Virus record (IMG/VR): IMGVR_UViG_3300048587_001023
Coordinates: 1 to 55,554 of that record
Source of the DNA: a virus
Strand: one strand, 5' to 3'
Length of the DNA stretch: 55,554 nucleotides
Part shown: one piece after another, positions 32,375-48,975 of the stretch
Layout: every line of letters begins with the position of its first letter
Position numbering within the stretch: position 1 is the stretch's first letter
Notes under the pieces: generated by a model
What the model saw: the letters and a program-made list of their open reading frames with translations, nothing else
Databases searched by the model: none
What the model was told of the DNA's origin: nothing
Program-made: the position numbers and the translations under genes

Positions 32375-32396
32375 CCCGCCCGCGAGGCGGGTTTTT
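32375..32396 (+). terminator. Terminator-like hairpin before the lysis genes
   Basis: CCCGCC at 32375-32380 pairs with GGCGGG at 32386-32391 around CGCGA, followed by TTTTT. The bases after it, CATTTCTGGAGA, are the same as those after the hairpin before the capsid gene. It could reduce lysis gene expression relative to tail genes. Confidence 0.6.
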
Positions 32397-32414
32397 CATT
32401 TCTGGAGACCGCCC

Positions 32415-32714
32415 ATGATCGAGCCCGAACGCCCGCATCCCACCGAAAACATCCTCACGTTGCGCCGTGAGGACTTCGACCACCTGCTCGATCTCGCCGC
32501 CGAACGCGGCGTCGAACGCGTGCTGGCACACCTCGGCCTGGAGAACGGCCACGCCGCCCGCGACATCCGCGAACTGCGCGACCTGCTCGCCGCCTGGCGC
32601 GACGCCCGGCGCACCGCCTGGCAGACCTTTATCAAGGTGGTGACCACCGGCGTGCTCGCCGCCTTACTGGTCGGCGCCGCCATCAAGCTCAAGCTGCTCG
32701 GAGGTGCCCAGTGA
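32415..32714 (+). CDS. DUF6127-like membrane protein of the lysis module
   Basis: The 99-residue protein has a cytosolic helical part (LRREDFDHLLDLAAERGVERVLAHLGLE, DIRELRDLLAAWRDARR) and one transmembrane helix near the C-terminus (VVTTGVLAALLVGAAIKLKLLGG, about residues 75-97). This matches my memory of DUF6127 proteins found with phage holins. It probably belongs to the lysis machinery or carries an antiholin-like function. CTGGAGA precedes the ATG and its end overlaps the holin start. Confidence 0.65.
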   Translation: MIEPERPHPTENILTLRREDFDHLLDLAAERGVERVLAHLGLENGHAARDIRELRDLLAAWRDARRTAWQTFIKVVTTGVLAALLVGAAIKLKLLGGAQ

Positions 32715-33187
32715 TCGAGACCCTACTCGGCGGCCTGATGGGCGGCCTGTTCCGACTCGCCCCCGAAGTGCTCAAGTGGCTCGACCGCAAAGGCGAGCGC
32801 GGCCACGAACTGGCCATGCAGGACAAAGCCCTGGAGTTCGAGAAGCTGCGCGGCGCGCAGAAGATGGCCGAGATCGGTGCCACCGCCGAAGCAGCCTGGA
32901 ACACCGGCGCCCTGGCCAGCCTGCGCGAAGCCATTTCCGCCCAAGGCCAGCGCTCGGGCATCGGCTGGGCCGACGCCTTGTCGGTCAGCGTCCGCCCGAT
33001 CATCACCTATTGGTTCATGGCCCTGTACTGCGCAGCCAAAACTGCAGCCTTCGTTTCCTCCGTTGAACACGGCCTGCAGTGGGGTGACGCCGTTGTCCTG
33101 GCCTGGACCGACGCCGACCAGGCCCTGTGGGCCGGCGTGCTGAACTTCTGGTTCCTTGGGCGCGTCTTCGATCGGGTGAGCCGGTGA
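32711..33187 (+). CDS. Holin, 3TM gene-transfer-agent type
   Basis: This 158-residue protein begins at a GTG overlapping the previous stop. It has an amphipathic N-terminal helix (LLGGLMGGLFRLAPEVLKWLDRKGERGHELAMQDKALEFEKL) and hydrophobic segments SVRPIITYWFMALYCAAKTAAF and ALWAGVLNFWFLGRVFDR. This fits the GTA_holin_3TM family. It would make the lesions through which the lysozyme reaches the cell wall. The lysozyme gene overlaps its stop. Confidence 0.75.
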   Translation: MIETLLGGLMGGLFRLAPEVLKWLDRKGERGHELAMQDKALEFEKLRGAQKMAEIGATAEAAWNTGALASLREAISAQGQRSGIGWADALSVSVRPIITYWFMALYCAAKTAAFVSSVEHGLQWGDAVVLAWTDADQALWAGVLNFWFLGRVFDRVSR

Positions 33188-33645
33188 TCGCGGTTCCACA
33201 GTCCGCGATCGATCTGGCCAAGCGCTTCGAAGGGTTCCACCGGGCTCCGAAATCGGACCCCGGCCGGGCCCATCCCTATCTGTGTCCGGCCGGGTATTGG
33301 ACCATCGGCTACGGCCATCTATGCGCGCAGGACCATCCGCCGATCACGCTGGCCGAGGCGGAGCAATACCTCGCCGGCGATCTGCAGTCGGCGCTCGTCG
33401 CCACGCTGAGGCTGTGCCCGGTGCTGGCCACCGAGCCCCAGGGGCGTATGGCGGCTATAGTCGACTTCACCTTCAACCTGGGCGCCGGGCGGCTGCAAAC
33501 ATCGACGCTACGCCTGCGGGTAAACCAGAAGGACTGGACAGGCGCGGAGAGGGAGTTGAAGCGCTGGGTCTACGGTGGCGGAAAGGTCCTGCCTGGGCTC
33601 GTGGCTCGACGACAGGCCGAAGTGGAGCTTCTCGCGGCAGACTAG
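33184..33645 (+). CDS. Phage lysozyme (endolysin), GH24 family
   Basis: The 153-residue muramidase has Glu16 in RFEGF and WTIGYGH at residues 39-45 with Thr40. The position usually held by a catalytic Asp, about residue 34, is a Cys in YLCPAGYWTIGYGH, as in the Cys-type branch of this family. The C-terminal half has FTFNLGAGRLQTSTLRLRVNQ and VYGGGKVLPGLVARRQAE, typical of T4-like lysozymes. It lacks a signal peptide, so it depends on the holin. The GTG start at 33184 overlaps the holin stop. Confidence 0.85.
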   Translation: MIAVPQSAIDLAKRFEGFHRAPKSDPGRAHPYLCPAGYWTIGYGHLCAQDHPPITLAEAEQYLAGDLQSALVATLRLCPVLATEPQGRMAAIVDFTFNLGAGRLQTSTLRLRVNQKDWTGAERELKRWVYGGGKVLPGLVARRQAEVELLAAD

Positions 33646-33678: not shown

Positions 33679-35781
33679 CTACGGTTTCAAGTCGCCCAGA
33701 AACTCCGACTCCGGCGACACGCCGGACGCATGCAAAAACTCGCGCGCCCGTGTGCACGCCACGTAGAGCAAATGGCGTTCCGTCGCGTAAACCTCGTCGA
33801 GATCGCTCTCGTCGCTCACGCTCTCGATACGGGATTGCAGCGGGATAACCTCATCGTCGCACGCCATGACTGCCACAGCGCGAAACTCCAGGCCCTTGGC
33901 AAAGTGCATGGACGCGATTGATGCCTTCCCGACCACCGACTGCACTTTTTCGTCCAGCACGACGAAGGGCAACCCCGCGCGTTGCAGCGCCTGTTCGGCG
34001 CGATCCAGTTCAGCGGCGCTGCGAACGAACACGCCGATTTCATGCGGAGCCAGTCGTGCCTCGGATTGAGCCTTGAGCCAATCGCCCACGCCTTCGATCT
34101 CCAGCGTTTGCGACTTGAACTCGCGCACGGTAGGCGCCGGGCCATTGAACACTGACACCGTGCCCTTACGGGACTCGGTGTTGCCGTCCACATCGGCGAT
34201 CTCGTCGGCGAGCAGCCGGTCCGCCCGCGCCCGAATCTGATGCGAAGTGCGGTAGTTGACGATCAGTGTTCGCGAGCGACCACGGACATCCACGCCGAGA
34301 GACTTCCACGAGAACGCTGTCTGGAAAATGCGCTGACCCAGGTCGCCTGCGAAGAACAGTGCATTCGGGCGCGCACCGCCCACTGCGGCTAGAAACTTCA
34401 ATTGCGCCACCGACACGTCCTGTGCCTCATCCAACACCACATGCTCGAACGGCGGATGCTTGCGTTTGGGTACTTCGCCCGCCAGCCGCGTGAAGACACC
34501 CGCCATCGAAACCAGTCCTTCGGCCTTCAGTTCCTGCCGGACAGCGTCGAACACCGACCACAACGTCGATCGCTGTGCGTCAGACAATCGGGTCTTGCGC
34601 CCCAGCCGCTTGACGTCTCGGTAGTCCTCCCACGTTTCCAACTGCCACGCATCGACGACCTGCTGCCACTCGCCGAAAAGAAAGGCCTCACTGAAGCGTG
34701 AACTGGATCCCCCCGCGCCATGTTTCGCCAGTCGCGCCTTCACATCGGCGATGGTCGCGAGCCGAGCCTTGCCGAAACTGGCCTCGTAAAGCCGCAGGCC
34801 CACCGCATCCAGTGCGGCGACTTCGATGCGCTCGCCCAGCCTCGGCTCCGAGCTGATCAGGTGTCGCAACTTCGCGCGCAGTGCAGTCGCAAGACCTTCA
34901 GAAAACGTGGTCAACAGCACCCGCGCATCGGGATTGGCGCGCACCAGGTGGGCCGCACGATGCAGAGCCACTATGGTCTTGCCGGTGCCAGCCGAGCCGG
35001 AAACGCGCGCCGGGCCGTTGTAGTCGCGGTGGACGAACTGACGCTGATCCGGATGCAGGAAGATTGTCCACTTCTCCCATGGCGCCTCGAAAGCGCGCTC
35101 AAGCTCCTCCACGTTCGCAACGACGCGGAAGCGGCGCAGTGCGTCGGGGTGCTCGAAGGGATCGGCATTCGGCGCCACGGCCACCGGCGCCACCTTGGGC
35201 ATGCCGCCGGTCGCCAGTTCCAAGAGGGCTTCGCCTGCCTCGGCGGGAAGATGGTCGACCAAGTCGAGTAGGGAATCCTCGTCGGCGCCGCGCACTTCAT
35301 CCAGCCATTCCGCCGGCACACCGAAACCGAGCAGCAACTGCTCCGGCGTCTGGGCGAACAGCAGGGGCTTTAGCGTGCGCCTGGCCGCCATTGCGTGCAC
35401 CGGTGCAGGTGCCTCCACCTCGACCACTTTCCGCACGCGGATTTCCTCCACGCGCTCGCGTACCTCCACGAACTGCGCCGCGCCCGTGGTCGGGTGCACT
35501 TCCAGCTTGCGCCGCTCGGCCCATGCATAGGCCTTGTCGTGATGATCGACAAAGCACAGCAGCAGGCTGCTGGCGGACTTGTGCACGATCAGCCGGAGAT
35601 CAGCGCCGACCCGAACTGACCAGAATCGCGGGTCCTTGGCACGGTCGAGCTTGTGGAAGCTCATGCCAGGACTGGATGGATTGAGCTGCAAGTCGAAGGC
35701 GGTGGTCTTGACCGCCTTCTGCTCGTCCCCGGTTAGCCGCGCGAGACTATCGGTGAAAGTGTCGGCAATGCGGAAATCCAT
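33679..35781 (-). CDS. RelE/ParE-like domain fused to UvrD-type helicase
   Basis: The 700-residue protein has an N-terminal module (residues 1-100) with the layout of a RelE/ParE toxin fold: ADTFTDSLARLTGDEQKAVKTTAFDLQLNP, FHKLDRAKDPRFWSVRVGADLRLIVHK and CFVDHHDKAYAWAERR. The rest is a superfamily 1 helicase with Walker A GSAGTGKT at about 262-269 and Walker B VVLDEAQD at about 449-456. It is the last gene of a seven-gene operon and starts directly after the preceding stop. It ends 33 bases from the convergent lysozyme gene. The pairing of toxin-like and helicase domains in a restriction operon suggests defence. Confidence 0.75.
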   Translation of the reverse strand: MDFRIADTFTDSLARLTGDEQKAVKTTAFDLQLNPSSPGMSFHKLDRAKDPRFWSVRVGADLRLIVHKSASSLLLCFVDHHDKAYAWAERRKLEVHPTTGAAQFVEVRERVEEIRVRKVVEVEAPAPVHAMAARRTLKPLLFAQTPEQLLLGFGVPAEWLDEVRGADEDSLLDLVDHLPAEAGEALLELATGGMPKVAPVAVAPNADPFEHPDALRRFRVVANVEELERAFEAPWEKWTIFLHPDQRQFVHRDYNGPARVSGSAGTGKTIVALHRAAHLVRANPDARVLLTTFSEGLATALRAKLRHLISSEPRLGERIEVAALDAVGLRLYEASFGKARLATIADVKARLAKHGAGGSSSRFSEAFLFGEWQQVVDAWQLETWEDYRDVKRLGRKTRLSDAQRSTLWSVFDAVRQELKAEGLVSMAGVFTRLAGEVPKRKHPPFEHVVLDEAQDVSVAQLKFLAAVGGARPNALFFAGDLGQRIFQTAFSWKSLGVDVRGRSRTLIVNYRTSHQIRARADRLLADEIADVDGNTESRKGTVSVFNGPAPTVREFKSQTLEIEGVGDWLKAQSEARLAPHEIGVFVRSAAELDRAEQALQRAGLPFVVLDEKVQSVVGKASIASMHFAKGLEFRAVAVMACDDEVIPLQSRIESVSDESDLDEVYATERHLLYVACTRAREFLHASGVSPESEFLGDLKP

Positions 35782-36222
35782 TCAGACAGGACTCCACTCT
35801 TGCCCGTCATTGAAAAGTAGCGGCGCCTTGGAAGCACGCGCCAACTGCAGAGCGCACTCCTTCTGCTTCGCCTTCTGCTCGTCCGGATCGCTGTCGTTCC
35901 AAGCCCAACCGCGAATTACCGCATGCCGTTCAGGAGGTTCTGATGAGGCAATCGAAAGGAGTGCCGCACGCACATCGCTTGCTTGGAACATTGCCGCGCC
36001 GTAAAGCTTGCGTCCATTCGCCGCAGCCGCACCAAGGGCACGAAGCGTTTCAAGTGGCTCGCGTCCGTGACGAGAAACCGATGTTTCGCGGTCCCTCTTC
36101 CCCGGAAGGAACACGCTTGGATCGACTTGCTGCTTTGAAAAGTGGCTGCTCTGGGTCAAGAAACGAGCGATCTGCTCGTCGTCTCCAACCGCTTCAGGCA
36201 GCCCAGAGGACAGCAACGTCAT
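35782..36222 (-). CDS. Unknown protein of the restriction operon
   Basis: This 146-residue protein contains DDEQIARFLTQSSHFSKQQVDPSVFLPGKRDRETSVSRHGREPLETLRALG and ERHAVIRGWAWNDSDPDEQKAKQKECALQLARASKA. No known motif is evident. It overlaps the gene before it by 29 bases and touches the helicase gene after it without a gap, so it is translated as part of the operon. Base composition is lower in GC than the phage genes. Its function is unknown. Confidence 0.6.
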   Translation of the reverse strand: MTLLSSGLPEAVGDDEQIARFLTQSSHFSKQQVDPSVFLPGKRDRETSVSRHGREPLETLRALGAAAANGRKLYGAAMFQASDVRAALLSIASSEPPERHAVIRGWAWNDSDPDEQKAKQKECALQLARASKAPLLFNDGQEWSPV

Positions 36223-36727
36223 TGGAGATGATGGCTCTCAGATTGGACAAGAATCTTGCCGGCAGGGACGGCGCACGGAATCGCTCAACCGCATGCCCCT
36301 TGTCCGAGCCGTCGATCCATGCATAAGCAAGTCTCTCCGAGCCCGATACGCTAACGGAGAACATGCGATCTCGCGTGGCAGTCCAAGTCAGAGAAATGGC
36401 CCCGTCCGGGTCAATCCCCACTTGCGGCAACTGCAGGTCATCCGGCAGGGCGAGCAAAAGTTGTCGTGCATTGCGAAGCGCATCCGCCGGAACGGCGTCT
36501 TGATCGTCATCTATCACCAACGATTCCACGACTTCGGACATACGCGACAACGCCGTCGCCTTGTTGCCGTACAGAACCTCTGAGCCCTCGCGGTCGCGGA
36601 GAACCCGAGACGCGGCTTTGCAGACTTGAATCGCCTCATCCGAGGTAGCGCTGGTCGCGCACTCATACCCCGCCAACGCGGAGTACCCAAGACACAATGC
36701 AGCAGCTACTGGAACAGGCTTAAACAT
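36194..36727 (-). CDS. Unknown protein of the restriction operon
   Basis: The 177-residue protein has a hydrophobic N-terminus (FKPVPVAAALCLGYSALAG) that could be a membrane or signal segment, then helices and a beta-rich part (GIDPDGAISLTWTATRDRMFSVSVSGSERLAYAWIDGSDKGHAVERF). It overlaps TIGR04255 by 22 bases and the next gene by 29. No ribosome site is visible, so translation may depend on reading the gene before it. The GC content is clearly below that of the flanks. Confidence 0.55.
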   Translation of the reverse strand: MFKPVPVAAALCLGYSALAGYECATSATSDEAIQVCKAASRVLRDREGSEVLYGNKATALSRMSEVVESLVIDDDQDAVPADALRNARQLLLALPDDLQLPQVGIDPDGAISLTWTATRDRMFSVSVSGSERLAYAWIDGSDKGHAVERFRAPSLPARFLSNLRAIISNDVAVLWAA

Positions 36728-37461
36728 TTGTCTGTCAACGTATTCTGAAACACCCGGTTTTTCAAGCCCCGCAGACCCTGTAACGTGCGTTCGAGCGTTG
36801 GCCAGTCATCCGGTATAAATGGCCTGTCCGCTTTCGCGGAGATGTCGAAGATGACGGGCAGTTTGTCGTCCCTAGCTGCCTCCGCGGTGAGCACCGTATT
36901 CACTTGGAAGCCAGTGTTTGTCTCGACTGCGAGGCTTTGATTCAAGAAGCCTGAGAACGCCAGCCCGCTGTTCTCCGGCAGCTTCGGGCCGCTCTTGAAA
37001 TAGTCATCGAGATTGACGGCACCATCTGACATAGGAAGCTGGATACGGTTGATGTATCGCAACTGCACAGCCCGGACCTGCACTGGCTTTGCAATGCCGC
37101 GATATAGCTCCCACGACCTACGGATCTCGGGAAGGTAATCGTCCAGGCTGGCATACGGGGCAAGTCGGTTAAACGAGTAGCCACCTCGACGAATCTGAAC
37201 GATCTGCAGCTCATCGTCCTGCAGAAATTGTAACGCCTGTAATGTGCTATTCGTCGATTTATCAGTGATACCACCCGAAGTGGCCTCTAGCTTGAGCTCC
37301 TGCAAGAGCTGCTTGCGCAACTTTGGATAGCTTTGCCTAAGCGCATCTCGGCTCGACGCTTCGATATCCAGCAAGCTGAACTTAGGCTCCAGATCGCAAT
37401 CGATATCGAGCACGGCTTCGACAATCGGCGGGTTACGAAGGTTCAAGGTTACTGCGGTCAT
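36706..37461 (-). CDS. TIGR04255 family protein
   Basis: The 251-residue protein has the start typical of TIGR04255 (TLNLRNPPIVEAVLDIDCDLEP) and the length of the family. Later segments include QVRAVQLRYINRIQLP and RPFIPDDWPTLERTLQGLRGLKNRVFQNTLTDKCLSLF. Members occur sporadically in bacteria, often near mobile elements, with unknown function. The ATG overlaps the stop of the methyltransferase gene by four bases, so it is part of the restriction operon. Its GC content falls to about 45-50% in places. Confidence 0.75.
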   Translation of the reverse strand: MTAVTLNLRNPPIVEAVLDIDCDLEPKFSLLDIEASSRDALRQSYPKLRKQLLQELKLEATSGGITDKSTNSTLQALQFLQDDELQIVQIRRGGYSFNRLAPYASLDDYLPEIRRSWELYRGIAKPVQVRAVQLRYINRIQLPMSDGAVNLDDYFKSGPKLPENSGLAFSGFLNQSLAVETNTGFQVNTVLTAEAARDDKLPVIFDISAKADRPFIPDDWPTLERTLQGLRGLKNRVFQNTLTDKCLSLFQ

Positions 37462-40307
37462 GACTGGCGCTCCGCTGACGGCACCCGAAAGACCTTCATC
37501 ACCTCGTCTCCCAGGTGGTTGATGACCTTCACCGCGATCCGACCGGAGGCGGGCTTGTCGAAGGGGCGCGAGGTGTCGCTGTTCAGGCTGGCCCAGGCAT
37601 CGGCGTCGATCTCGGCCTTCAAGGTGGTCTTCAAGGCTTTGTAGGGGTCGTTGGCGCCGAGGAAGTAGGCGTGGCGGACGAAGAAGCTCTCCTCGTTGTA
37701 GTCGGTATCGATGAACCAGCAGGCGATGCCGTCGGCGCCGTCGCTGCGGATTTCGCCGCTGTTGGGGTGGAACACGTCCACGCCGTTCACCTTGACGCGC
37801 ATCTGGCCGGGCTCGCCGTCATCGCCGGCATCGAGAATGTCGATGTCGGGCTCGCCGAAGATCACGAACAGGTTGCCCTTGCCGGTGTTCTTGAGGTCTT
37901 CGGCCATGTGCAGGTCGGCGTTCATGCGCGCCTGCAGCACGCGGATACGGCCAAGCTTGGCAAGATCGCTGGCGTGGGCATCGAAACTGAAGGCGCAGGC
38001 GATCAGCACGTCGAAGTCGGCTTCGGCCGCTTCGCGCGCGGCCGCAGCCAGGTCCACGCGGGTGACGGTGCCGAACTCCGGACCGATGAAGATCGCAGCG
38101 CGACGCTCGTCCGTGCCCTCCAGGTAGCGCCCCTCGGCGCAGATCAGTTCACCCGGCCAGGGCGTCAACGCGGTGAAGTCGATTTTGTCGGCCTTGTGTG
38201 CCTGCTGCACGCCAGCCGTGCGCAGGTTTTCCAGGATGATGGCGTTGAAGTCGCGGCCATACTCCGCCTGCGCCTCGGCGACCTGATCGATCAGGTCGTC
38301 GTTCTCATCCACGCCCAGCACGCGATGCGGACTCAAGGACTCCACCGTGAACGGCCCGGCCACGCGCACCTTCTTCTTGTCCTCGTAGGGCTTGTCATAG
38401 AGGAACTCGGAGTCGGCCTTGGCGGCGATGGAGGCGTCGATCTCCTTCTGGCGGGCGATGCGCTGCTGCCACCAGTCGGCGTGTGCCTGTTTAGCGGCAT
38501 CCGACCACTTGGCATCCGCTTGCCGCGGGATTTCCCAATCCTCCCACTTTTTGCCAACCGCCTTGTTCAAGGCAGCGCGCAGCGGCTCCAGCAGCGCCTG
38601 AAACTTGTCCCAGATAACGTCGATTTCGGCATTGCTGACGATGTTACTGAGCATGATGTGCGGCACCCGCTCATAGACGAAGCCCTGGCGGATGTTGCCT
38701 AAGGCTGGCTTACTGCTCGGAGCGGTGCGCGTAACCTCCGCCTCCTTTTGCTGCCCCTCCTTGCTATCGGCGAGCAGGTAGAACGGATAGCGCGCACCCA
38801 TAATGCGCGCACGAGCCAGCGCCAATGCCACCCGCGAAGTGTCGATCGTGATCCAGCGGCGGCCCCACTGCTCGGCGACATAGGCCGTAGTGCCCGAACC
38901 ACATGTTGGGTCTAGCACGAGATCACCGGGATCGGTCGCCATCAAGATGCACCGCTCGACGACCTTTGCTGAAGTTTCGACGACGTATCGTTTGTCCGAG
39001 GCAAAACCTGCGATTCCGGTATCACTCCAGACATTGCTCTCGGGGAACGCGGCAAAGTCTTCAAAGTATCGAACGTAATAGAGTCCCTTATCACTCGATG
39101 CCAATCGGTCTGCCCGGAGCAAGTGCTTCATACCCTCTTCATTAGTCTTCCAGCGCACCTTCTCGGAAGGACGCAGAGTTTTGCCATGAAACTGCACTGG
39201 AAACCAAGACGCTGCGCCTTCGCCCTTGTCGCGCCCAACACTTTGGCTGGTCAGATTGTCGATGCGGAACACTCTCGAACCGCCAGGCAAATCAATCGCA
39301 CCTGCGATTTCTTCCTTCGAAAGAGGCCTCTCGCTCAGGTCAGCCAGCTTCAACTTCCTGTAAGCCCCACCTCCGGCGCCACCGACCTGCTTTGTCGTTA
39401 GTGGCTGCCGATATTTGAGGCGCTGGCGATCTTTCGCGTAAAAAACAAGAACGTCGTATGTTCCAGCCAAATACTCAGAAGTCGCGCCGGCAGTCTTCGA
39501 AAATATGATCTGCGAAACGAAGTTGTCGGAACCGAAGACTTCATCAAGTAGCGATCTCACCAAGTGGCTATTGTCCTGGCCGATCTGGACGAATACCGAG
39601 CCCGACTCAGTTAGCAGGTCCCGAGCCACCGTCAACCGGTCGCGCAGATAGGTCAGGTACGAGTGGATGCCATCGCGCCAGGTATCACGGAAGGCCTTCA
39701 CCTGTTCCGGTTCGCGGGTGATGTGTTCGGCGTTGCCGTCCTTCACGTCGCGGCTGGTGGTTGACCACTGGAAGTTGCTGTTGAACTTGATGCCGTAGGG
39801 CGGATCGAAATAGATGCACTGCACCTTGCCACGTAGCCCCTCGCGCTCGGCCAGGCTCGCCATCACCTGCAGCGAATCACCAAGGATGAAGCGGTTCGCC
39901 CAGTGCGCGTCGTGCTGGTAGAACTCGGTGCGTGCGGCCTCACTGGGCAGGCCATTGAAGTCGGCAAACAGGTCGACCATCGCGCCCAGCTGCTGCTGCG
40001 CCTGCGCCTCGCGCCGACGCTCGCTTTGGCGGCGCAGGTCGTCCACCAGCACCTTCGGATGCACCTTCTCTTGGATATAGAGGGGGGCTGCGTGAACGAC
40101 GAGATCGGATTCGTCCTGGGCATCCTTGCCGCGCCAGACCAGCTGCGGATCGAGGTCGCGGTTTCGACGCTCGTAAGCCACGCGCACCGGACTCTGTTCG
40201 GACTTCGCCAGCACCGCTTGGTATTCCGCGGTGGGAATGTTCTTGCGCGTGGCGTCCTCGTGCTTGAGGGCTTCGACGCTGATCGGGTTATTCTTTTTTG
40301 TGGCCAT
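37458..40307 (-). CDS. Type III-like DNA methyltransferase (Mod)
   Basis: This 949-residue enzyme has motif IV DPPYGIKFNSNFQ at about residues 166-178 and motif I DPTCGSGTT at about 463-471, the order of beta-class methyltransferases of type III systems. The part between them, the target recognition region, is encoded by DNA of clearly lower GC than its flanks. A long C-terminal region (about 480-949) exceeds the size of classic Mod proteins. It begins one base after the stop of the restriction gene and shares a four-base overlap with TIGR04255. It would mark host DNA against its partner nuclease. Confidence 0.85.
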   Translation of the reverse strand: MATKKNNPISVEALKHEDATRKNIPTAEYQAVLAKSEQSPVRVAYERRNRDLDPQLVWRGKDAQDESDLVVHAAPLYIQEKVHPKVLVDDLRRQSERRREAQAQQQLGAMVDLFADFNGLPSEAARTEFYQHDAHWANRFILGDSLQVMASLAEREGLRGKVQCIYFDPPYGIKFNSNFQWSTTSRDVKDGNAEHITREPEQVKAFRDTWRDGIHSYLTYLRDRLTVARDLLTESGSVFVQIGQDNSHLVRSLLDEVFGSDNFVSQIIFSKTAGATSEYLAGTYDVLVFYAKDRQRLKYRQPLTTKQVGGAGGGAYRKLKLADLSERPLSKEEIAGAIDLPGGSRVFRIDNLTSQSVGRDKGEGAASWFPVQFHGKTLRPSEKVRWKTNEEGMKHLLRADRLASSDKGLYYVRYFEDFAAFPESNVWSDTGIAGFASDKRYVVETSAKVVERCILMATDPGDLVLDPTCGSGTTAYVAEQWGRRWITIDTSRVALALARARIMGARYPFYLLADSKEGQQKEAEVTRTAPSSKPALGNIRQGFVYERVPHIMLSNIVSNAEIDVIWDKFQALLEPLRAALNKAVGKKWEDWEIPRQADAKWSDAAKQAHADWWQQRIARQKEIDASIAAKADSEFLYDKPYEDKKKVRVAGPFTVESLSPHRVLGVDENDDLIDQVAEAQAEYGRDFNAIILENLRTAGVQQAHKADKIDFTALTPWPGELICAEGRYLEGTDERRAAIFIGPEFGTVTRVDLAAAAREAAEADFDVLIACAFSFDAHASDLAKLGRIRVLQARMNADLHMAEDLKNTGKGNLFVIFGEPDIDILDAGDDGEPGQMRVKVNGVDVFHPNSGEIRSDGADGIACWFIDTDYNEESFFVRHAYFLGANDPYKALKTTLKAEIDADAWASLNSDTSRPFDKPASGRIAVKVINHLGDEVMKVFRVPSAERQS

Positions 40308-40308
40308 C

Positions 40309-43300
40309 TCAGGCGTCCTTACTCAAAGCGGCGGCGTCGATCATGCGTTCAAAGTGCTCCTTGATCTTGGCTGCAAAGTCGTCCTGCATCTCGTAGACGT
40401 CGGTGAACTCGACGAAGGCCCAGCGACCGTATTTGCCCGCGCAGTTCACGCCAGGCACCCAGTAGGTGTCCATCGTCAGCTTCTTCAGCACCGCGTCCTC
40501 GCGACGGTAACCCTTCACTTCGACGATCAGGTGCAGGGGGTCGTCGAGGCCATGGCCATCATCGATTTTCACGATGAAGTCCGGGATGTACTTGCGGGTC
40601 TCCGAGCCGGACCTGTAAGGAACGTCGAGACCGAGGTTGTGGTTCTTGGTGTAGGCCAGCACCTTCGGATGCGCCTCGGCCACACGGCAGAACTCGGCTT
40701 CCCAGTCGCTGTCGAGAATCACCCAGTTGACGTGGTTCTTGGGTGGAGGGCCAAGTGTTTCGTAACGATCCCGACGCGAGGTGTTGAAGGCGACGTGGCA
40801 GGTTGAGCCTTCCGGGTTGTAGGGATCGAACACCGCCTTCACCGGGCGGCCCTGCTTTAACTCCACACGGGTGATGGCTGCGGTGATGCGATCGCAAGCC
40901 TTGTCGGCCAATTCCTGATAGAGCAGCTGCCCAGGAAAAGTGCCGCCCTTGCATACCAGGCAGGTGTCCAGCCATTCCTTGACGATGCGCTTCAACTGCC
41001 CGAAAAGGTGTAGCGGCGGGGCGGCTCCGGCCTCGCGCCATTTGTTCAGGAGCAGGTGCTTGGTGAGATGCATCAACACCGTCGAAGGGCGAACGTCGCC
41101 CAGGTGTTGCAGATTCAGTTCGACGGCCTCGCCAATGATGCCCGCCTGGACGTTACGCGATGGACCAACCAGTTCCGGTGTCAGCACCAATACCGAGTCA
41201 TCAACGAACTCGGCGCTTAATCTGTCCTCTGGCAATTCGACGCGATAGCCCACAACACGAGGGAAGCGGATCTCCAGTGCGTCGCGTTCGGGGCGAACGG
41301 CACGCACGCGGATGACTTCAATCGGCGGTTCAGGCGGGATCACCACGGGCTGCGCGGTGAAATTGAACGGGATACCCAGCACGTCGGCGTATTCGACGTT
41401 GAACAGGCCATCGGCGTTGAGTTCGTAGGACTGTCGGCGAAGGGCGCGACCCACGACCTGTTCGCACAGCAACTGGGTGCCGAAGGCGCGCACACCGAGC
41501 ACGTGGGTGACGGTGTTGGCGTCCCAACCTTCGGTGAGCATCGCCACCGACACCACGCAGCGCACCGAGTCGCCCAGGCGGCCCTCCTTGCCGACGGTAT
41601 TCATCGCCTCACGCAGCAGCTCCGCATCCGTGAGGTTGTCGGCAGCGTGCGCGTCGCCGGTGCGTTCGATGATCTCGCGGCGGAAACGGTCGATCTCGTC
41701 GCTGGCAATGGCGCGGAAGTTGTCATCGAGCGCGTCGCCCGATTCAAGTTGTTCGCTGTCCACCAGCAGGGTGCGCGGCCGCGCGAGCGGACTGCCGTGC
41801 TCGTCGTGGTTCTGGAACAACTTGAGGCGCCCCTCCACCAGCTGGCTGGTGCCGTCGTCGTTCTCCTGCTGAAAGCCGGAAATGTAGTCGTACACCAGCT
41901 TGGATGTGCTGGTGTTGTTGCACACCACGATGAAGCACGGCGGCACCTTGATGCCCGCCTTCTGCCAGTGCTCGAATACCGTGACGTAGTGGCCGTAGAG
42001 CGCTTCCAGCGCGGTCTGCAATTCAACCGGCAGGCTGAGAGGGTCGAGTCGGTTGCCCTTGCCGCGCCCCTTTTTCGGCATGCGCTTGCCGATGTGTTTC
42101 CACAGTTCCCGGTACACCGGAAATTCATTACCAGGGATGTTGTCGGCCACAGGAACGCGCGGCAGTTTGACGATGCCGCACTCGATGGCGTCCATCAGCG
42201 AAAAGTCGCTCATCGTCCAAGGGAACAGGGTGCCTTCGGCGTAGCCCGACCCGCGAAGGAAGAACGGCGTGGCGGAAAGGTCGAACACGCGCGAAAGTCC
42301 AAGCTTGCGGTTCACAGCCTCGAGGCCAGAAATCCACAGGCGCGCTGCCTCATTGTTCTCCTCGACCTCCTTGCGGTCGTCGCCTTTGAGGTCGTCGTTG
42401 TCCTCAACGCTCTCGCCGGGAGGCTTCTCGCGGTAGCAATGGTGTGCCTCGTCGTTGATGGCCAGAATGTTCTTCAGCCCCATCAATTCAGGCAGAACCC
42501 GCTGCAGCATCTGACCTTCGGATTCCAGCGTCTGCAATTCTTCACCACCGCGCCCCTGCAACAGGCGTCGACCGCCGCTGGAGACCTCGAACCGCTCGCG
42601 CAGGCGGAAGGCGTGATAGTTGGTGATGACAATGCGCGCGTGGGCGATGTCGGCCAGCATGTCGCTGGGCACCAACTCGCGGTTGGCGTAGTAGCTCTCG
42701 GTGTCGTTGGGCAGCAGCACGCGCAGGCGATCTTTGATCGTCAAACCTGGCGCAACAATGAGGAAGCCGCGCGTGAACCTCTGGCTGTTCGGACGGCGCA
42801 CTGCATTGATGGTCTGCCACGCGATGAGCATGGCCATGACCGTGGTCTTGCCTGCACCGGTGGCGAGCTTCAGCGCAAGACGGGTGAGTTCGGGATTGGC
42901 CTCGCTGTTGGACTTGGAGAGATGATCGAGGAAGCGCTGACCGCTCTTGCCGAGCTGCGGGGCGACTTCGGTAAGCCAGATGGCCGTCTCCACGGCTTCG
43001 ATCTGACAGAAGAACGGGCGAAGGCCGGAGAAGCGATGGCTGCGCCAGTGCTGCAACAGGCGCGCGGTTTCCGGCGTGACGCGCCACGCAGACGCAGGCA
43101 GCTCGCGCCACTTGTCGACCTCCGCACGCACGGCATTGATGACGGCAGTGTGGTCGTACTGCTGCTTCTCGGAGGACAGACCCTTGCCTTCGTCGAATAA
43201 CAGCGACCCTTGATCGCCCGCACCCTTCTGCTTGCGCGGCTTCGGGATGGGTGTAATGAAATCGGCCTGGCGACGAGCTTCCATGACGACCTGGGTCGGC

Positions 43301-43386
43301 TGACCCGAAGCATCCAACTCCCAATGCCGCGCAGGCCGCGCGTACGGCGAATTCAGGATCGGCTGATCGAAGAACGGATTCGACAT
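40309..43386 (-). CDS. BPTD_3080-type restriction helicase-nuclease (Res)
   Basis: The 1025-residue protein begins SNPFFDQPILNSPYARPARHWELDASGQ, which I recognise as the start of the BPTD_3080 restriction endonuclease family. It has a superfamily 2 helicase core with ATGAGKTT at about 173-181 and DEAH at about 311-314. A C-terminal PD-(D/E)XK nuclease shows DFIVKIDDG...LIVEVKGYRRED (about 940-965). It should move along DNA and cut when the target is unmethylated. The ATG at 43386 follows AGGGA and lies seven bases after the stop of the HTH gene. Confidence 0.85.
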   Translation of the reverse strand: MSNPFFDQPILNSPYARPARHWELDASGQPTQVVMEARRQADFITPIPKPRKQKGAGDQGSLLFDEGKGLSSEKQQYDHTAVINAVRAEVDKWRELPASAWRVTPETARLLQHWRSHRFSGLRPFFCQIEAVETAIWLTEVAPQLGKSGQRFLDHLSKSNSEANPELTRLALKLATGAGKTTVMAMLIAWQTINAVRRPNSQRFTRGFLIVAPGLTIKDRLRVLLPNDTESYYANRELVPSDMLADIAHARIVITNYHAFRLRERFEVSSGGRRLLQGRGGEELQTLESEGQMLQRVLPELMGLKNILAINDEAHHCYREKPPGESVEDNDDLKGDDRKEVEENNEAARLWISGLEAVNRKLGLSRVFDLSATPFFLRGSGYAEGTLFPWTMSDFSLMDAIECGIVKLPRVPVADNIPGNEFPVYRELWKHIGKRMPKKGRGKGNRLDPLSLPVELQTALEALYGHYVTVFEHWQKAGIKVPPCFIVVCNNTSTSKLVYDYISGFQQENDDGTSQLVEGRLKLFQNHDEHGSPLARPRTLLVDSEQLESGDALDDNFRAIASDEIDRFRREIIERTGDAHAADNLTDAELLREAMNTVGKEGRLGDSVRCVVSVAMLTEGWDANTVTHVLGVRAFGTQLLCEQVVGRALRRQSYELNADGLFNVEYADVLGIPFNFTAQPVVIPPEPPIEVIRVRAVRPERDALEIRFPRVVGYRVELPEDRLSAEFVDDSVLVLTPELVGPSRNVQAGIIGEAVELNLQHLGDVRPSTVLMHLTKHLLLNKWREAGAAPPLHLFGQLKRIVKEWLDTCLVCKGGTFPGQLLYQELADKACDRITAAITRVELKQGRPVKAVFDPYNPEGSTCHVAFNTSRRDRYETLGPPPKNHVNWVILDSDWEAEFCRVAEAHPKVLAYTKNHNLGLDVPYRSGSETRKYIPDFIVKIDDGHGLDDPLHLIVEVKGYRREDAVLKKLTMDTYWVPGVNCAGKYGRWAFVEFTDVYEMQDDFAAKIKEHFERMIDAAALSKDA

Positions 43387-43393
43387 TTCCCTG

Positions 43394-43618
43394 TCACCCT
43401 CGGCCTTTGCTTCTTGCGGATTGCCCCTGAGTCGCAGGGAGTAGCGTCTGTTCTTCGATCCAGCGGTCCAGGTCGGCCGTGCGAAAACGCCAGGTCCCCC
43501 CAAGCTTGAACGCCGGAATTTGGCCGTTCGACGCGAGTCGATAGACGGTGCGCTTTCCGGCTTTCAGGTAGATCGCCACCTCGTCCAGCGTCAGAATGTC
43601 ACCTTCGATGTTCGCCAT
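43394..43618 (-). CDS. Excisionase-type HTH regulator of the restriction operon
   Basis: The 74-residue protein contains GDILTLDEVAIYLKAGKRTVYRLASNGQIPAFKLGGTWRFRTADLDRWIEEQTLL, the helix-turn-helix of the AlpA/MerR-like excisionase family. It is the first gene of the restriction operon. A perfect inverted repeat at 43648-43668, 30 bases upstream, is the likely operator. It may control expression of the toxic restriction gene as C proteins do in other systems. Confidence 0.8.
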   Translation of the reverse strand: MANIEGDILTLDEVAIYLKAGKRTVYRLASNGQIPAFKLGGTWRFRTADLDRWIEEQTLLPATQGQSARSKGRG

Positions 43619-43833: not shown

Positions 43834-46800
43834 TCAAGGGGCGAAAACCAGCTCTGGCAACACAACATCCCAACCCTCACATAGGTACTGGGACTGGTAC
43901 TCGGGCTTGCTGTCGGATTTTCGCCAGGCCAAGACCGCACCTACGCGGGCCGCCTGACAGTGCAGGCCTGTCGGTGGAACGAAGCGCTTTGACAACTTGC
44001 CCACGACCACGCCGGCCTGATCCTCAAGTCGAATACCGCGTTCGTCCGCGACATAGCGCAACGGGTCACCGACGCGCAGCGCCGCGATGGCTTGATGCGT
44101 TCTGCTACCCGCGCCCTGCCGACCGGCATGACCCAAATCGACATCTCTCATGGCGAGCTTGAAGTACCGATACGACATCGGGCCCGGCGCCGGAAGGCGG
44201 CCGGCCTGGGGCCTGCGGAACAGGGCCGGATGGTCATCCAATCCATCGAGAATCTCATTGCCCGCATCCAAGCGCGCCAGTGTCAACGTAGCGCGAGCTC
44301 GGGTCATGGCGACGTAATAGAGTCGGCGCACCGCGTCCTGGTCTTCATTGCTGCCTGCGCGCCATTCGCCGTCGAGCACGAACACATGGTCAAATTCCAG
44401 GCCCTTGGCGCGATGCGCGGTCAGCAACATCACGCCTTGCTGGTCACGCCGACTGGCGCGCCCCCACTCTGCGAGCCAGTCACGGAACACGGGCAACGAA
44501 ACCTCCGCACCCTGGGTGTCTTCAGCAAACGCCGCGATGGCTTCGACCACCATGGGCCACCAGCCGGCGCCGTCTTGCAGGGCAAGCCAAGCCTGAATGT
44601 CGTCGGCCGTGAGCAATCGGGACCGTGACACCTTTTGCCGCTCATCCAGATAGGCAAGCAGGGTCTGCGTTTCCCTCAAGCGCCACAGGGGTGGAGATTG
44701 CTCATCCGCCATGACGACCGGCATTCCTGCCGCCTCAAGCGCGGCGCGCAGGGGGTCGAGGAACTTCCACTGGCGAGCGATCACGGCCGTCTTCTTCGGA
44801 TCAAGGCCAAGCGCCATCATTCGCTTGAACTCGGTGTAGACCGCGAGCGCCTGCTCCGTCGCGCTTTGACCGGCCGGCAGGATCTGAACCCGTCCCTGTC
44901 CGACCAGATCGATCTTCTGCCAGTCCCCTCCAGGATGGGACTTCGCTCGCGCGGCGTTCACTCGAATCGCCTCGGCTTTCATCCGCTCGGAAGCGACCGC
45001 AATCACGGCGTTGGCGGCGTCGACAATGTGGCGCGTGGAACGGTAATTCTCGATCAGAAACTGCGTCTTGGCCTGGTAGTCGTCGGCGAAGCGGCGGATG
45101 AACTCCACCGATGCGCCCGCAAAGCCGTAGATGTTTTGATCATCGTCACCGACGGCAAACAGATTGAGCCGGCCATCTTCATCACTTCGCTTGCGGCCCG
45201 CGAGTGCCGAAATCAGTTTGTACTGCCCTTCGTCGATGTCCTGATACTCGTCGACCAGAATCCAGCGAAAGCCGGCGAGCAGCCGGTCGCGCTGAGTATC
45301 AGCATCTTCCGGCGGCAGGTCGCGACCTTCGAGCAACGCCGTGGCCTCCGCCAACACGGCATCGAAATCGGCCTCCTCGCTGCGCTGGGCAAAACTGGCG
45401 CCGACCAAGCGCATGGCCAACCCATGGCAGGTCAACACGGTGACCCTGCGCGCATCGTCGCCGATCAACTCAGCCAGCCGCCGTCGAATCTCAAGCGCCG
45501 CATGGCGGTTGTAGGCCAGGGCCAAGAGGGCATTAGGATTTTCGCGGCGAACACGCACCAGATACGCAATGCGATGGACAAGCACGCGCGTCTTGCCTGA
45601 TCCAGGACCGGCCAGGACCAGCACATTTGTATTCTCGCGGTCATCGGCAACGATGTTGCGCTGGTGCGGGCGGGACAAGGTCTCGACGATGGCTTCCCAC
45701 GACTGCGGCGTGGTCTGCCGGGTGAGCTCGCTCTCCCGGCCCGGCAGCCACCGACGGCAGAACTCCTCGCGCGACAAGCGGAAATAGTCCATCGCCAGAT
45801 TCAAGGCATCCGCCATTTTCTGCCTGCCCCGCTCGGCGTACTCGGCCATGATGTGAATCTGCCGAGTCAGTTCGTCGTAGTGCAGCGCCAGCGGCTGGAA
45901 GTTGCTCTTCTCGAACTGCAGCTTCCAGTTGCTTTCCAGATTCAAGGTCATGGCCGAGCGGAAGATCGCCAGCCCCTTGTTCAGACGCAGCACTTCCTGC
46001 TCATGCAGCCAGAGCAGCGCTCGCTCGACCAGCTTGCGCAGATCCGGCGTGCTATTAACCAGGAGCGCGTCGCCCGCGACGCTGGCGGTGAGCTCACCAA
46101 AGGTGGTCTCCGCGAGTTGATCCACGCCGCGGGCGCCTTTCGGCAGGCTCGCAATCCAGTGATCGAGCAGCCGTCCCGCGGCTGTCCGCCGTCGCTCTGC
46201 GATCTCCTCTACGGTGCTCCATGGGCGGTTGAGCTCGATATAGACCGTTTCAGGGTCATGGCCGCGCTTCAACGTCAGGCTGCCTCTGCCCTCTGATCCA
46301 TCGCGACCGTCACCGGCCAGCCCGGCGATGATCTGCCGCAACCGCTGTGGCAGTGCGGCGAACCCATCGTCCTTGAGTCGCTGGGACAGCAGACGAAGAT
46401 GCAGCGGCGAGCCCTCGCCCACTTCAAGGTCCGGCGCTTCTTCCCGCAACGTGGCGATAACGGCCCGTTCCAGAGAGACCGCCTCCTCGAAGCGCTTTTT
46501 TGACGATCGCTCCACGGCGACATGGACATACGCCGTCATGGCCAAGTCGTTACTGGCAATACCGAGGCGATCGAGCAGAAACAGCGCTTCCCGCAGGCCA
46601 TCGGCGTTGAACCCCGTGGCAGCCATCAGCTCATCGGTGGACAGCCCCTCATCGGCCGCGGCGGACAGCAGGATCTGGATCAGATCCAGGTACTTCTTGC
46701 GGTCCGAGATCGCAACGCCCGCCAGCTTTCGCTCGGCATCGGCAAGACTCTTGACCCGCAGCGCCGAAGGAAATATCTGCACGGCGTTTTCTTCGCGCCG

Positions 46801-48975
46801 TACCAGCCCCGCTTCTTCCAGCCAAGCAATCGCCGTGCGAACGCGCGTGTCGTCGGTCGCGATATCGCGCTTGAACTTGCCCTCGTCATCTTCGTCGAGA
46901 ATTTCGCCACTGGTGGCAACGAGCGCCTGGCTGCGATCCTTCTTCCGCTGTAACTGACGAAGGGCGCGCAACACGCTCTGGATATCGCGTTGCGACAACC
47001 GCGATGAGGCCGACATGCCGTGCTGTCGCTCGACGTCCTCAGACGTGTAGAGCAGTACGCATCGCGCCTGTGCGCGGTCGCGACCTGCGCGGCCGGCTTC
47101 CTGCAGGTAGTTCTCCAGCGATCCGGGAATGTCCGCATGCACCACCAGGCGCACGTCTGGCTTATCGATACCCATGCCGAACGCATTGGTCGCGGCGATG
47201 ACACGAAGCTCCCCGCCGATGAAGGCCTTCTGCGTCACCTTCTTGGCTTCGGGCGGTAGCTTCGCGTGATACGGCGCGGCGGCAAGCCCCTTATCGCGCA
47301 GGAAGTCGGCTAGATCTTCCGTTTGCTTGCGAGTCGCGCAGTAAGCGATCGCACCGCCGGACATGTCCGGCGGAAGATCCCGCTCGATCAGCTCAAAGAC
47401 CCGAGTGAACTTTTCGCTCGCGGTGGTCTCAATGACGTCGAACTCGAGGTTGTCTCGCTTCGATCCGCCATCCAGAACCCGCACCTCCACACCCAGCTTT
47501 TCCCGGAAGTGCCCGACGATGTCGGCAACGACTTCGGGCTTGGCCGTAGCGGTCAAACACTGGATCAGCGGCAAATCGCCGCCCGGACTGGACTCGGCGT
47601 TCTCGCGAATAAACCGCGCGACATAGCGGTAATCCGGGCGGAAATCCTGCCCCCATTTGGACAGGCAGTGTGCTTCGTCAAAGATCCAAGCGCCGATCTC
47701 GCGCTGCGCCAGCACTTTTCGCACGCTCTTGTTGCGGAGTTGTTCCGGCGCGATGAGCAGAATACCGATGTCGCCGAGCCGCACTCGATCGAGCACATCG
47801 GCTCGCTCCGGCATCGACAGCAGGCCGTTGATCGCCGCGCAGGATTCGATGCCACGCTCGCGCAAGCCCTTGACCTGGTCCTCCATCAGCGCCACCAAGG
47901 GCGAGATGACGATGGACAGCGCACCGGTCCGCACGAAGCGCGACAGTGCGGGCACCTGATAGCACAGCGACTTTCCGGTGCCGGTGGGAAGGATGCCGAG
48001 CGCGTGTTCGCCACGCATTGCCGCCTCGACAATCACCTTCTGCAAGGGCTGTCCGCTCGCAGTGTCTTTCGGCTCGGGCCGGAAGTCGTAGGTCTGACCA
48101 AACCAGTGCTGCAACTGGGTCAGCGCATCGTGCTCGCGACGGCACCAGTCACAATCTACTTCTCCGCAGGGGGCGTCGCGCAGCGATCGGACCAACCGCC
48201 CTGCCTCCGGGAACTGGTGGCGCACCCACGGCGGCATCACAGAATTGCCGCCAGCCACCGACAGCCAGGCGAGTGCATAGGCCAGCGGCCAGGCCACGCG
48301 CTCGGCTTCGGAGGCAGCCTCCTCAATTAGCCGAGCGCTCGCGTGGCGACAGGCCGCGCCCTCCAATAGCCGGCCGATGGCGGCTTTGGCCTCGAGCTCG
48401 CTAGGCGTGCTGGCCCGGCGCACCACCATAAAGAACCGATTGAGCCCAGACACCTTGCCGTCCTGGGTGGTCAGCCAGTGCCAGGCGAGCAGCAGGTCCG
48501 GGGAGGACTCCTGCATCGCCTTGAGGGCCAATTCTTGATCAAGGAACACGCGCAGGACGAGTTCGGAATCGAGCAAGGGATCGTTGCGGCGATTGCCAAG
48601 CAACTGCCCGTCCTGGTAATGCTTGACGAGGTGGTGGTAGGGGTTACGCGGGAATGCGAGCGGGTTCAGGCGCAGCGTATCCACCGCGGGTTTATCGAGT
48701 AGCCGCAAGTTGGGTTCAGCCGCGCGCAACTGCGGCAAATCGAACGCGATCAGGTTGTGACCGATGACGAACGCCGCGGCGTCACCGAGGGAATCGAGTG
48801 CATCCAGCGCTTGGTGCAACGTTCCCGGTGGGAAAACCACGGTATCGCCGCTGTCCCCGCGAACGCCGGCTAGCTGATGGATGCGCCCGCTGTCTCGGCC
48901 GACCTCCAGATCGATCGCCAGACACTTTGCTCCGCGGCGGCCAGAGGCGCTGGACTGGTCATCCTGTGTGGTCAT
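43834..48975 (-). CDS. DnaQ-like exonuclease/RecQ/UvrD helicase fusion
   Basis: This 1713-residue protein joins three units. Residues 18-160 look like a DnaQ-type exonuclease (LAIDLEV with D22 and E24; IGHNLIAFDL). Residues about 300-800 are a RecQ helicase with PTGTGKS at 327-333, DEAH near 430-433 and GRAGRDRAQARCVLLYT. Residues about 1100-1600 are a UvrD-type helicase with AGPGSGKT at about 1119-1126 and DEYQDID near 1238-1244. The ATG at 48975 overlaps the stop of an AbiEi-like gene by four bases. The combination points to DNA processing in defence, perhaps on invading phage DNA. Confidence 0.8.
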   Translation of the reverse strand: MTTQDDQSSASGRRGAKCLAIDLEVGRDSGRIHQLAGVRGDSGDTVVFPPGTLHQALDALDSLGDAAAFVIGHNLIAFDLPQLRAAEPNLRLLDKPAVDTLRLNPLAFPRNPYHHLVKHYQDGQLLGNRRNDPLLDSELVLRVFLDQELALKAMQESSPDLLLAWHWLTTQDGKVSGLNRFFMVVRRASTPSELEAKAAIGRLLEGAACRHASARLIEEAASEAERVAWPLAYALAWLSVAGGNSVMPPWVRHQFPEAGRLVRSLRDAPCGEVDCDWCRREHDALTQLQHWFGQTYDFRPEPKDTASGQPLQKVIVEAAMRGEHALGILPTGTGKSLCYQVPALSRFVRTGALSIVISPLVALMEDQVKGLRERGIESCAAINGLLSMPERADVLDRVRLGDIGILLIAPEQLRNKSVRKVLAQREIGAWIFDEAHCLSKWGQDFRPDYRYVARFIRENAESSPGGDLPLIQCLTATAKPEVVADIVGHFREKLGVEVRVLDGGSKRDNLEFDVIETTASEKFTRVFELIERDLPPDMSGGAIAYCATRKQTEDLADFLRDKGLAAAPYHAKLPPEAKKVTQKAFIGGELRVIAATNAFGMGIDKPDVRLVVHADIPGSLENYLQEAGRAGRDRAQARCVLLYTSEDVERQHGMSASSRLSQRDIQSVLRALRQLQRKKDRSQALVATSGEILDEDDEGKFKRDIATDDTRVRTAIAWLEEAGLVRREENAVQIFPSALRVKSLADAERKLAGVAISDRKKYLDLIQILLSAAADEGLSTDELMAATGFNADGLREALFLLDRLGIASNDLAMTAYVHVAVERSSKKRFEEAVSLERAVIATLREEAPDLEVGEGSPLHLRLLSQRLKDDGFAALPQRLRQIIAGLAGDGRDGSEGRGSLTLKRGHDPETVYIELNRPWSTVEEIAERRRTAAGRLLDHWIASLPKGARGVDQLAETTFGELTASVAGDALLVNSTPDLRKLVERALLWLHEQEVLRLNKGLAIFRSAMTLNLESNWKLQFEKSNFQPLALHYDELTRQIHIMAEYAERGRQKMADALNLAMDYFRLSREEFCRRWLPGRESELTRQTTPQSWEAIVETLSRPHQRNIVADDRENTNVLVLAGPGSGKTRVLVHRIAYLVRVRRENPNALLALAYNRHAALEIRRRLAELIGDDARRVTVLTCHGLAMRLVGASFAQRSEEADFDAVLAEATALLEGRDLPPEDADTQRDRLLAGFRWILVDEYQDIDEGQYKLISALAGRKRSDEDGRLNLFAVGDDDQNIYGFAGASVEFIRRFADDYQAKTQFLIENYRSTRHIVDAANAVIAVASERMKAEAIRVNAARAKSHPGGDWQKIDLVGQGRVQILPAGQSATEQALAVYTEFKRMMALGLDPKKTAVIARQWKFLDPLRAALEAAGMPVVMADEQSPPLWRLRETQTLLAYLDERQKVSRSRLLTADDIQAWLALQDGAGWWPMVVEAIAAFAEDTQGAEVSLPVFRDWLAEWGRASRRDQQGVMLLTAHRAKGLEFDHVFVLDGEWRAGSNEDQDAVRRLYYVAMTRARATLTLARLDAGNEILDGLDDHPALFRRPQAGRLPAPGPMSYRYFKLAMRDVDLGHAGRQGAGSRTHQAIAALRVGDPLRYVADERGIRLEDQAGVVVGKLSKRFVPPTGLHCQAARVGAVLAWRKSDSKPEYQSQYLCEGWDVVLPELVFAP

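Follow-up and report, generated by a model that had tools for sequence, protein, structure and literature searches.

A type III-like restriction-modification operon with an interval that may dock exchangeable anti-phage modules

Why should a restriction-modification (R-M) operon carry four further genes, and do they all belong to it? The question is raised by seven minus-strand genes in a virus record of 55,554 bases (IMG/VR record IMGVR_UViG_3300048587_001023), the whole of which was analysed and is called the window here. In this operon, genes for a helix-turn-helix (HTH) protein, a restriction subunit (Res) and a methyltransferase (Mod) are followed by a TIGR04255-family gene, two further genes (X1 and X2) and a gene fusing a RelE-like domain to a UvrD helicase. 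A first-pass annotation, made from the sequence alone, proposed that the four extra genes belong to one larger defence system. We consider it probable instead that the operon is a type III-like R-M frame in which an interval between mod and uvrD, slot B, docks whole independent anti-phage modules, the trio TIGR04255-X1-X2 being one such cargo, perhaps of effector, neutraliser and sensor or adaptor. The features that the argument needs are as follows (all on the minus strand; aa, amino acids).

43394..43618, minus: HTH, 74 aa, excisionase-like DNA-binding protein; open reading frame that opens the operon
40309..43386, minus: Res (ATG at 43386), BPTD_3080-type restriction subunit with helicase and C-terminal nuclease motif; NF046055, ResIII and weak RE_endonuc matches
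37458..40307, minus: Mod, methyltransferase of 949 aa; PDLC03632 and N6_N4_Mtase (PF01555)
38960..39580, minus: Mod, variable recognition region (codons 243 to about 450); blastn breakpoints, non-homologous to the nearest relatives
35782..37481, minus: slot B, exchangeable cargo region from the last codons of mod to the uvrD ATG; blastn breakpoints against L021, L031, L033 and L034
36706..37461, minus: TIGR04255-family protein, 251 aa, head of the cargo trio; TIGR04255.1
36194..36727, minus: X1, middle gene of the trio (177 aa); predicted structure
35782..36222, minus: X2, last gene of the trio (146 aa); predicted structure
33679..35781, minus: RelE-like domain plus UvrD helicase, 700 aa, closing the operon; Pfam UvrD and UvrD alignment

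Replaced content on a shared frame

Four contigs (L021, L031, L033 and L034) carry near copies of the window's frame, with UvrD proteins 91-93% identical and, in L021, the sole one of the four that holds Res, a Res that is 95% identical. By blastn, the frame DNA is 86-92% identical to L021, L031 and L034 and 85-87% identical to L033. In all four relatives homology is lost at 37482, where eight codons of mod remain, counting the stop, and restarts at 35781, the uvrD ATG. The cargo lying between these points in the relatives is a 366-aa and a 144-aa protein, of which the former clusters with X1 and the latter is a distant X2 (E 1.1e-5). A further replacement falls within Mod, where homology to L021 and L031 ends at 39580 and restarts at 38960 (39077 in L033; the L034 contig does not extend to this region). 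Residues 271-440, the least conserved of Mod in 91 sequences, fall within the replaced codons 243 to ~450, and methyltransferases of this motif order hold target recognition in such a central region. Because the frame is near-identical, the replacements are bounded and the cargo is different, frame and cargo are judged from these alignments to have different histories.

The frame itself recurs widely. Species genomes scanned with a UvrD alignment gave at least 540 confirmed relatives, and the best 80, which were retained, come from many phyla and are 59-68% identical. The window's UvrD heads that alignment and the 80 are its top scorers, so its kin are over-represented. Of the 80, 74 have mod upstream of uvrD in the same orientation, and in the other six just 92-1771 bp of contig is left. 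To avoid choice by UvrD, we also searched for Res in 398 genomes of one phylum, 27 of which scored above the cut-off; weaker matches, in 108 of 135 genomes and some with split or partial Res, were left out. Among the 25 Res-chosen loci studied (G001, the centre, and G166, which is cut off, were omitted), UvrD follows Res and Mod in 16 (partially in L224), and four contigs break off before this could be read. Among viral contigs and plasmids, those with all three genes keep the order Res, Mod, UvrD with gaps of varying size. The earlier proposal of an operon larger than Res and Mod therefore stands for RelE-like/UvrD (74/80 and 16/25) but falls for TIGR04255, X1 and X2, which are exchangeable cargo.

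Slot B is nearly closed in some relatives and filled in most. In the 74 loci it measures less than 60 bp in 13, 60-299 bp in four and at least 300 bp in 57 (median 1665 bp, maximum 9879 bp), and the 15 measurable Res-chosen loci divide into two, two and 11 over the same classes. Many relatives also vary in the interval between res and mod, slot A, which reaches at least 400 bp in 20 of the 49 measurable loci; in L047 it holds a UPF0175 and DUF3368 pair, which we take to be of toxin-antitoxin type.

Once repeated contigs and near-copies had been discarded, genome, viral and plasmid loci together yielded 166 proteins called in slot B. They form many clusters, the largest being that of the trio, the commonest cargo seen. 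Family scans covered 115 of the 166 in batches and ten picked proteins singly. Batch matches include SIR2, HerA, AbiEii-like ATPases, ABC-3C parts, KAP, AbiJ and RlaP, together with Fic, HepT, GmrSD and reverse transcriptase. The single scans named HerA, IetS-like, Dsr1, PDC-S06, DRT UG14, LmuB, DrmD and PD-Lambda-5_A proteins and, in part, PDC-M38A, while the singly scanned protein of L129 had no match at 1e-30. Anti-phage matches close to full length are SIR2 beside HerA in L076 (named in the single scan), Dsr1 in L070 (1647 bits), DRT UG14 in L101 and LmuB in L082. One two-gene cargo (~333 aa and 837 aa) recurs in four genomes (L054, L058, L090 and L099), its 837-aa protein being IetS-like in L054, and some slot-B proteins are without a Pfam match.

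The assignment of the frame to a type III-like system is supported by both core proteins. Res passes the NCBIfam model NF046055 for BPTD_3080 (1333 bits; cut-off 800), matches PF04851 (ResIII) and weakly RE_endonuc in Pfam, and carries an EVKG nuclease motif read by eye; a comparison with PDB sequences gave no useful match. Mod is the PADLOC type III methyltransferase PDLC03632 (1597 bits), matches PF01555 in Pfam and contains both DPPY and DPTCGSGTT. The operon thus has the type III features of a Mod with catalytic motif and internal recognition region and of a helicase/nuclease Res adjoining mod. An HTH homologue, 54-64% identical, stands ahead of Res in several viral contigs. The TIGR04255.1 model of NCBIfam scores 98.6 bits (curated cut-off 30), and X1 and X2 have no family in PADLOC, NCBIfam or Pfam. 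The tight packing described in the first-pass annotation holds: the HTH stop lies 7 bases from the Res ATG, the largest gap, one base separates Res from Mod, the overlaps are 4 bases (Mod/TIGR04255), 22 (TIGR04255/X1) and 29 (X1/X2), and X2 meets RelE-like/UvrD without a gap. From this spacing we infer a single transcript for all seven genes. Protein P0005 as analysed starts one codon ahead of the ATG.

Two side observations concern the frame proteins. In L064, L114, L121 and L129, some 370-460 bp interrupt Mod near residue 825-860, ahead of its conserved C-terminal part, and L093 and L095 break near the same place without a long insert. In L048 and L049 (Thermus and E. coli plasmids), RelE/UvrD relatives, 35 and 31% identical, are the last genes of operons that also encode a DNA methylase and a giant DruE-like helicase, so that this UvrD serves more than one kind of defence operon. 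These sister operons were considered as Hma, an assignment rejected because their large helicase is DruE-like by PADLOC.

The trio TIGR04255-X1-X2

All three trio genes match in slot B of eight of the 74 related loci; the gene order is therefore not peculiar to one strain. A strain-specific order was one of two findings by which the first-pass annotation would have counted its proposal refuted; the other, extra genes lying mainly apart from Res and Mod, does apply to TIGR04255, X1 and X2. Elsewhere the trio stands by itself. TIGR04255 occurs in 30 of the 398 genomes at 32 places, the surroundings of all of which were inspected. At the 31 places outside G001, neither Res nor Mod nor RelE-UvrD was found in stretches of about 5-19.5 kb, limited by the contigs, and 11 of these places hold TIGR04255-X1-X2 in order (one with X2 split, one with TIGR04255 cut by the contig end). 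Because the ordered trio occurs at these 11 places without Res/Mod, it is independent of the Res/Mod operon, and it exists as a complete module outside its host operon, by which an embedded module is recognised. X1-type matches occur in nine of the 398 genomes, the centre included, and L152 has X1-X2 without a detected TIGR04255. The plasmids gave no X1 or X2 match and one weak TIGR04255 match, and no X2 or TIGR04255 peptide pattern was confirmed in the viral contigs.

At the other 20 places X1 and X2 were not found. The readable genes that follow TIGR04255 there differ, among them a PemK-type toxin (L241) and an HTH-bearing second gene (L242), and at some places no such gene was found; operons that start with TIGR04255 thus appear to exchange their last genes. 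We also note TIGR04255 operons with other third genes that lack a Pfam family (L256:4046-4423, L260:1575-1946, L240:7572-8150 and L254:5249-5887), two of which share a RAYYAALL motif reminiscent of HEPN domains.

The fold of X2 is predicted to be ADP-ribosyltransferase-like. Its model has a predicted local distance difference test (pLDDT) score of 89.3, and VIA-align matches it to KptA/Tpt1 2'-phosphotransferases (Z 7.6 to 4.9), to a type III effector of ADP-ribosyltransferase fold (5.5), to DarT, an ADP-ribosyltransferase (4.6 and 4.3), to chain B of the TreTu-TriTu structure 7zhm (4.0) and to further ADP-ribosyltransferases. At least 27 of the first 29 rows are, judging the fold from the names, presumably ADP-ribosyltransferase-fold proteins. 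Across 25 aligned rows, which include one split copy as two separate rows, R20 is conserved in 22, S48 in 23 and H100 in 24. Rows L021 and L125 were added to this alignment (A4) by eye before testing, and a profile built without them afterwards recovered L021 (E 1.1e-5) and L125 (0.0021). The structure prediction used both of these rows, and the other 10 helper rows also came from slot B.

The model of X1 has a pLDDT of 73, poor in the first half and 85-92 over residues 81-160. Its C-terminal domain is matched by VIA-align to Med17 (Z 8.1), to chain C of 7zhm (6.9, over 76 of 87 residues), to a sigma appropriation complex chain (6.3) and to T4 MotA (5.5). This domain may weakly resemble the immunity protein of the TreTu-TriTu toxin, with the roles of the chains deduced from the match. 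The toxin-immunity structure 7zhm thus has one chain matched by X1 and another by X2, which is suggestive, not proof. The trio differs from TreTu/TriTu in that a TIGR04255 gene precedes and in that no sequence similarity was found; comparison of X1 and X2 with PDB sequences gave nothing useful, TreTu/TriTu included. TIGR04255 has one short match among PDB sequences (9hnh_A, E 0.0064). For residues 1-100 of UvrD, which presumably carry a RelE-type pattern, the best such match is the toxin RelE3, weak (E=0.13) and co-linear.

Docking, exchange and competing explanations

Building on the observed frame, slot, content replacement, remnants and independent trio, we infer a shared promoter, a recombination route and the activities that follow. 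In the frame Res-Mod-RelE/UvrD, Mod would mark self DNA and Res would cut unmarked DNA, as suggested by their families, and specificity would shift by swapping of the Mod recognition region. RelE/UvrD would be a helper, probably a helicase acting on cut or translocated DNA. Slot B would take independent anti-phage modules, which would fall under the shared promoter; the mod 3' and uvrD 5' ends on either side would let recombination swap or stack them. In the window's cargo, X2 would be an ADP-ribosyltransferase-like effector hitting a cell or phage target, X1 would keep it silent, and TIGR04255 would be a sensor or an adaptor or holder. The trio would then supply an independent second line, a back-up (abortive) response, and a response after restriction failure fits the kind of cargo carried.

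The proposed route is addressed by remnants, sought as mod 3' and uvrD 5' pieces in slot B and as res 3' and mod 5' pieces in slot A. Such pieces lie inside 7 of 57 filled slots B and in none of 51 control stretches downstream of uvrD; that of L098, which reflects a frameshift where mod ends, was not counted, so that six are credible. L103 and L113 each have two blocks of cargo separated by the start of a uvrD and the end of a mod, overlapping or adjacent, an arrangement that fusion of operons with loss of the middle would be expected to leave. The slot-B remnants suggest module stacking by recombination. A looser scan (71 slots, E 0.01) gave extra short matches in L001, L002 and L089, which were not counted. 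A competing view needs no exchange mechanism: insertions into slot B would be random, and they would be borne because the cell can do without uvrD or transcribes it from a separate promoter. The small number of credible remnants and the lack of a DNA-level signal at the mod end are in keeping with this, but the breakpoints lie at gene ends (37482 and 35781) and the remnants carry the mod 3' and uvrD 5' ends that the controls lack. We regard random insertion as unlikely.

An equally unlikely alternative is that the trio is a toxin-antitoxin addiction module, serving to prevent loss of the operon or its carrier and not to stop phages. Its small overlapping genes, the effector-like X2 and the immunity-like X1 would suit such a module, as would the PemK toxin in the sister TIGR04255 locus L241 and the pair of apparent toxin-antitoxin type in slot A of L047; against it, many other occupants of slot B match anti-phage systems. 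That all seven genes form one defence machine, each extra gene being needed for restriction, is very improbable. The same-direction overlapping genes, the recurrence of the three cargo genes in the same slot and the recurrence of UvrD speak for it, but 13 of the 74 loci leave less than 60 bp for slot B and most others fill it differently, the trio occurs alone elsewhere, and the nearest relatives keep the frame with other cargo. A co-operative effect is possible, while the trio as a required part is contradicted: all 31 TIGR04255 places outside G001 and all 25 Res-chosen loci speak against the view of TIGR04255, X1 and X2 as parts of the restriction system, which we therefore abandon.

Several observations weigh against the docking model. 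None of the Res-chosen loci holds the trio by tblastn, which strongly diverged copies could escape, so that its eight occurrences in slot B are drawn from the window's closest kin. UvrD is itself absent from the examined stretch in three of the 25, with Mod broken or missing in two of these, and two distant loci are arranged otherwise. Among 30 viral Res loci UvrD is present in 12, and the remainder are truncated or without it, mostly where Res is below 55% identity, yet also in L010 at 67%. From the UvrD-chosen, Res-chosen and viral counts together, RelE/UvrD is a regular member of this clade and not of every BPTD_3080 system. No remnant was found in 20 filled slots A. The mod 3' end was tried and rejected as a DNA-level attachment site, since its fourfold-site identity (0.36-0.47) is not raised above the range of mod outside the variable region (0.33-0.49), and no such site is seen. 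As to structure, Foldseek gave nothing significant, its best E being 1.2 for X2 and 0.088 for X1, Z scores of 7-8 are the usual best of VIA-align for models without a clear match, and the classical catalytic Glu is not among the conserved columns of X2 in the 25 rows. Classical ADP-ribosyltransferase-fold enzymes use a catalytic Glu, and the classes differ in catalytic residues.

Docking of independent modules in slot B remains our preferred reading. A bolder form of it, which we put forward tentatively and hold to be doubtful, is that BPTD_3080 operons are mobile docking frames whose mod 3' and uvrD 5' homology arms swap modules and Mod specificity without an integrase. RelE/UvrD would then serve every cargo, and TIGR04255 would head a new three-gene class with exchangeable effectors, here an ADP-ribosyltransferase-like one with an unusual R-S-H set.

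Neighbours, known systems and significance

Only 33 bases separate the operon's 3' end from that of an endolysin gene (33127-33645), and the two converge. About 1.2 kb past the operon, L021, L031, L033 and L034 match the adjoining phage region of the window at 32379-32714 (73%), and since the near relatives share this adjacent stretch, operon and prophage end may travel together. Phage genomes gave no near match to the operon, their UvrD matches reaching just 25-27% identity over one third of the length, so that carriage of the operon by phages is unsupported. Just upstream, at 43834-49038 on the minus strand, lies a 1734-aa fusion of RecQ-type and UvrD-type helicases that overlaps an AbiEi-like gene (48972-49577); these two may be another defence unit.

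Embedding of defence genes has precedents. DarTG2 is embedded in a type I R-M operon of enteropathogenic Escherichia coli (EPEC) in which a small regulator gene comes first (PMC12255303), and TgvAB in a type I R-M operon of Vibrio pathogenicity island 2 (VPI-2) of Vibrio cholerae, where it protects against phages with modified DNA without HsdR (PMC11411939). The same two papers tell of embedding in Hma, defined in PMC8565338, and effectors lie inside BREX core loci (PMC12839542). The window operon resembles the type I cases in holding what would be a separately working defence module inside an R-M operon, and the EPEC operon also in being led by a small regulator gene, here HTH. It differs from them in its host, BPTD_3080 Res/Mod with RelE/UvrD, in one slot taking many kinds of module across many phyla, and in its cargo, a trio that they do not describe. 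With Hma and BREX it shares interchangeable effectors between core genes ('guilt by embedding'), but the core genes differ.

Type III R-M systems of the EcoP15I type have a Mod with DPPY and a central variable region and a Res with helicase and nuclease motifs. These are common to the window operon, which differs in its extra UvrD and cargo slots and in a Res without a PDB sequence match. Type III systems are further defined by a Mod-Res complex whose ATP-dependent cleavage falls between paired sites. Our literature search, with bioRxiv preprints outside it, found no account of BPTD_3080 operons as hosts or of TIGR04255. Because embedding is established in type I R-M, Hma and BREX, we count the window operon as a variant of it; what is new here is the host operon and the trio cargo.

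If slot B is a general docking place, its contents would give a ready list of anti-phage candidates, with at least 540 UvrD relatives to draw on. TIGR04255-X1-X2, as the commonest cargo seen here, would top that list. Nearly identical frames that differ in the Mod recognition region and in cargo would, in addition, constitute a natural experiment.

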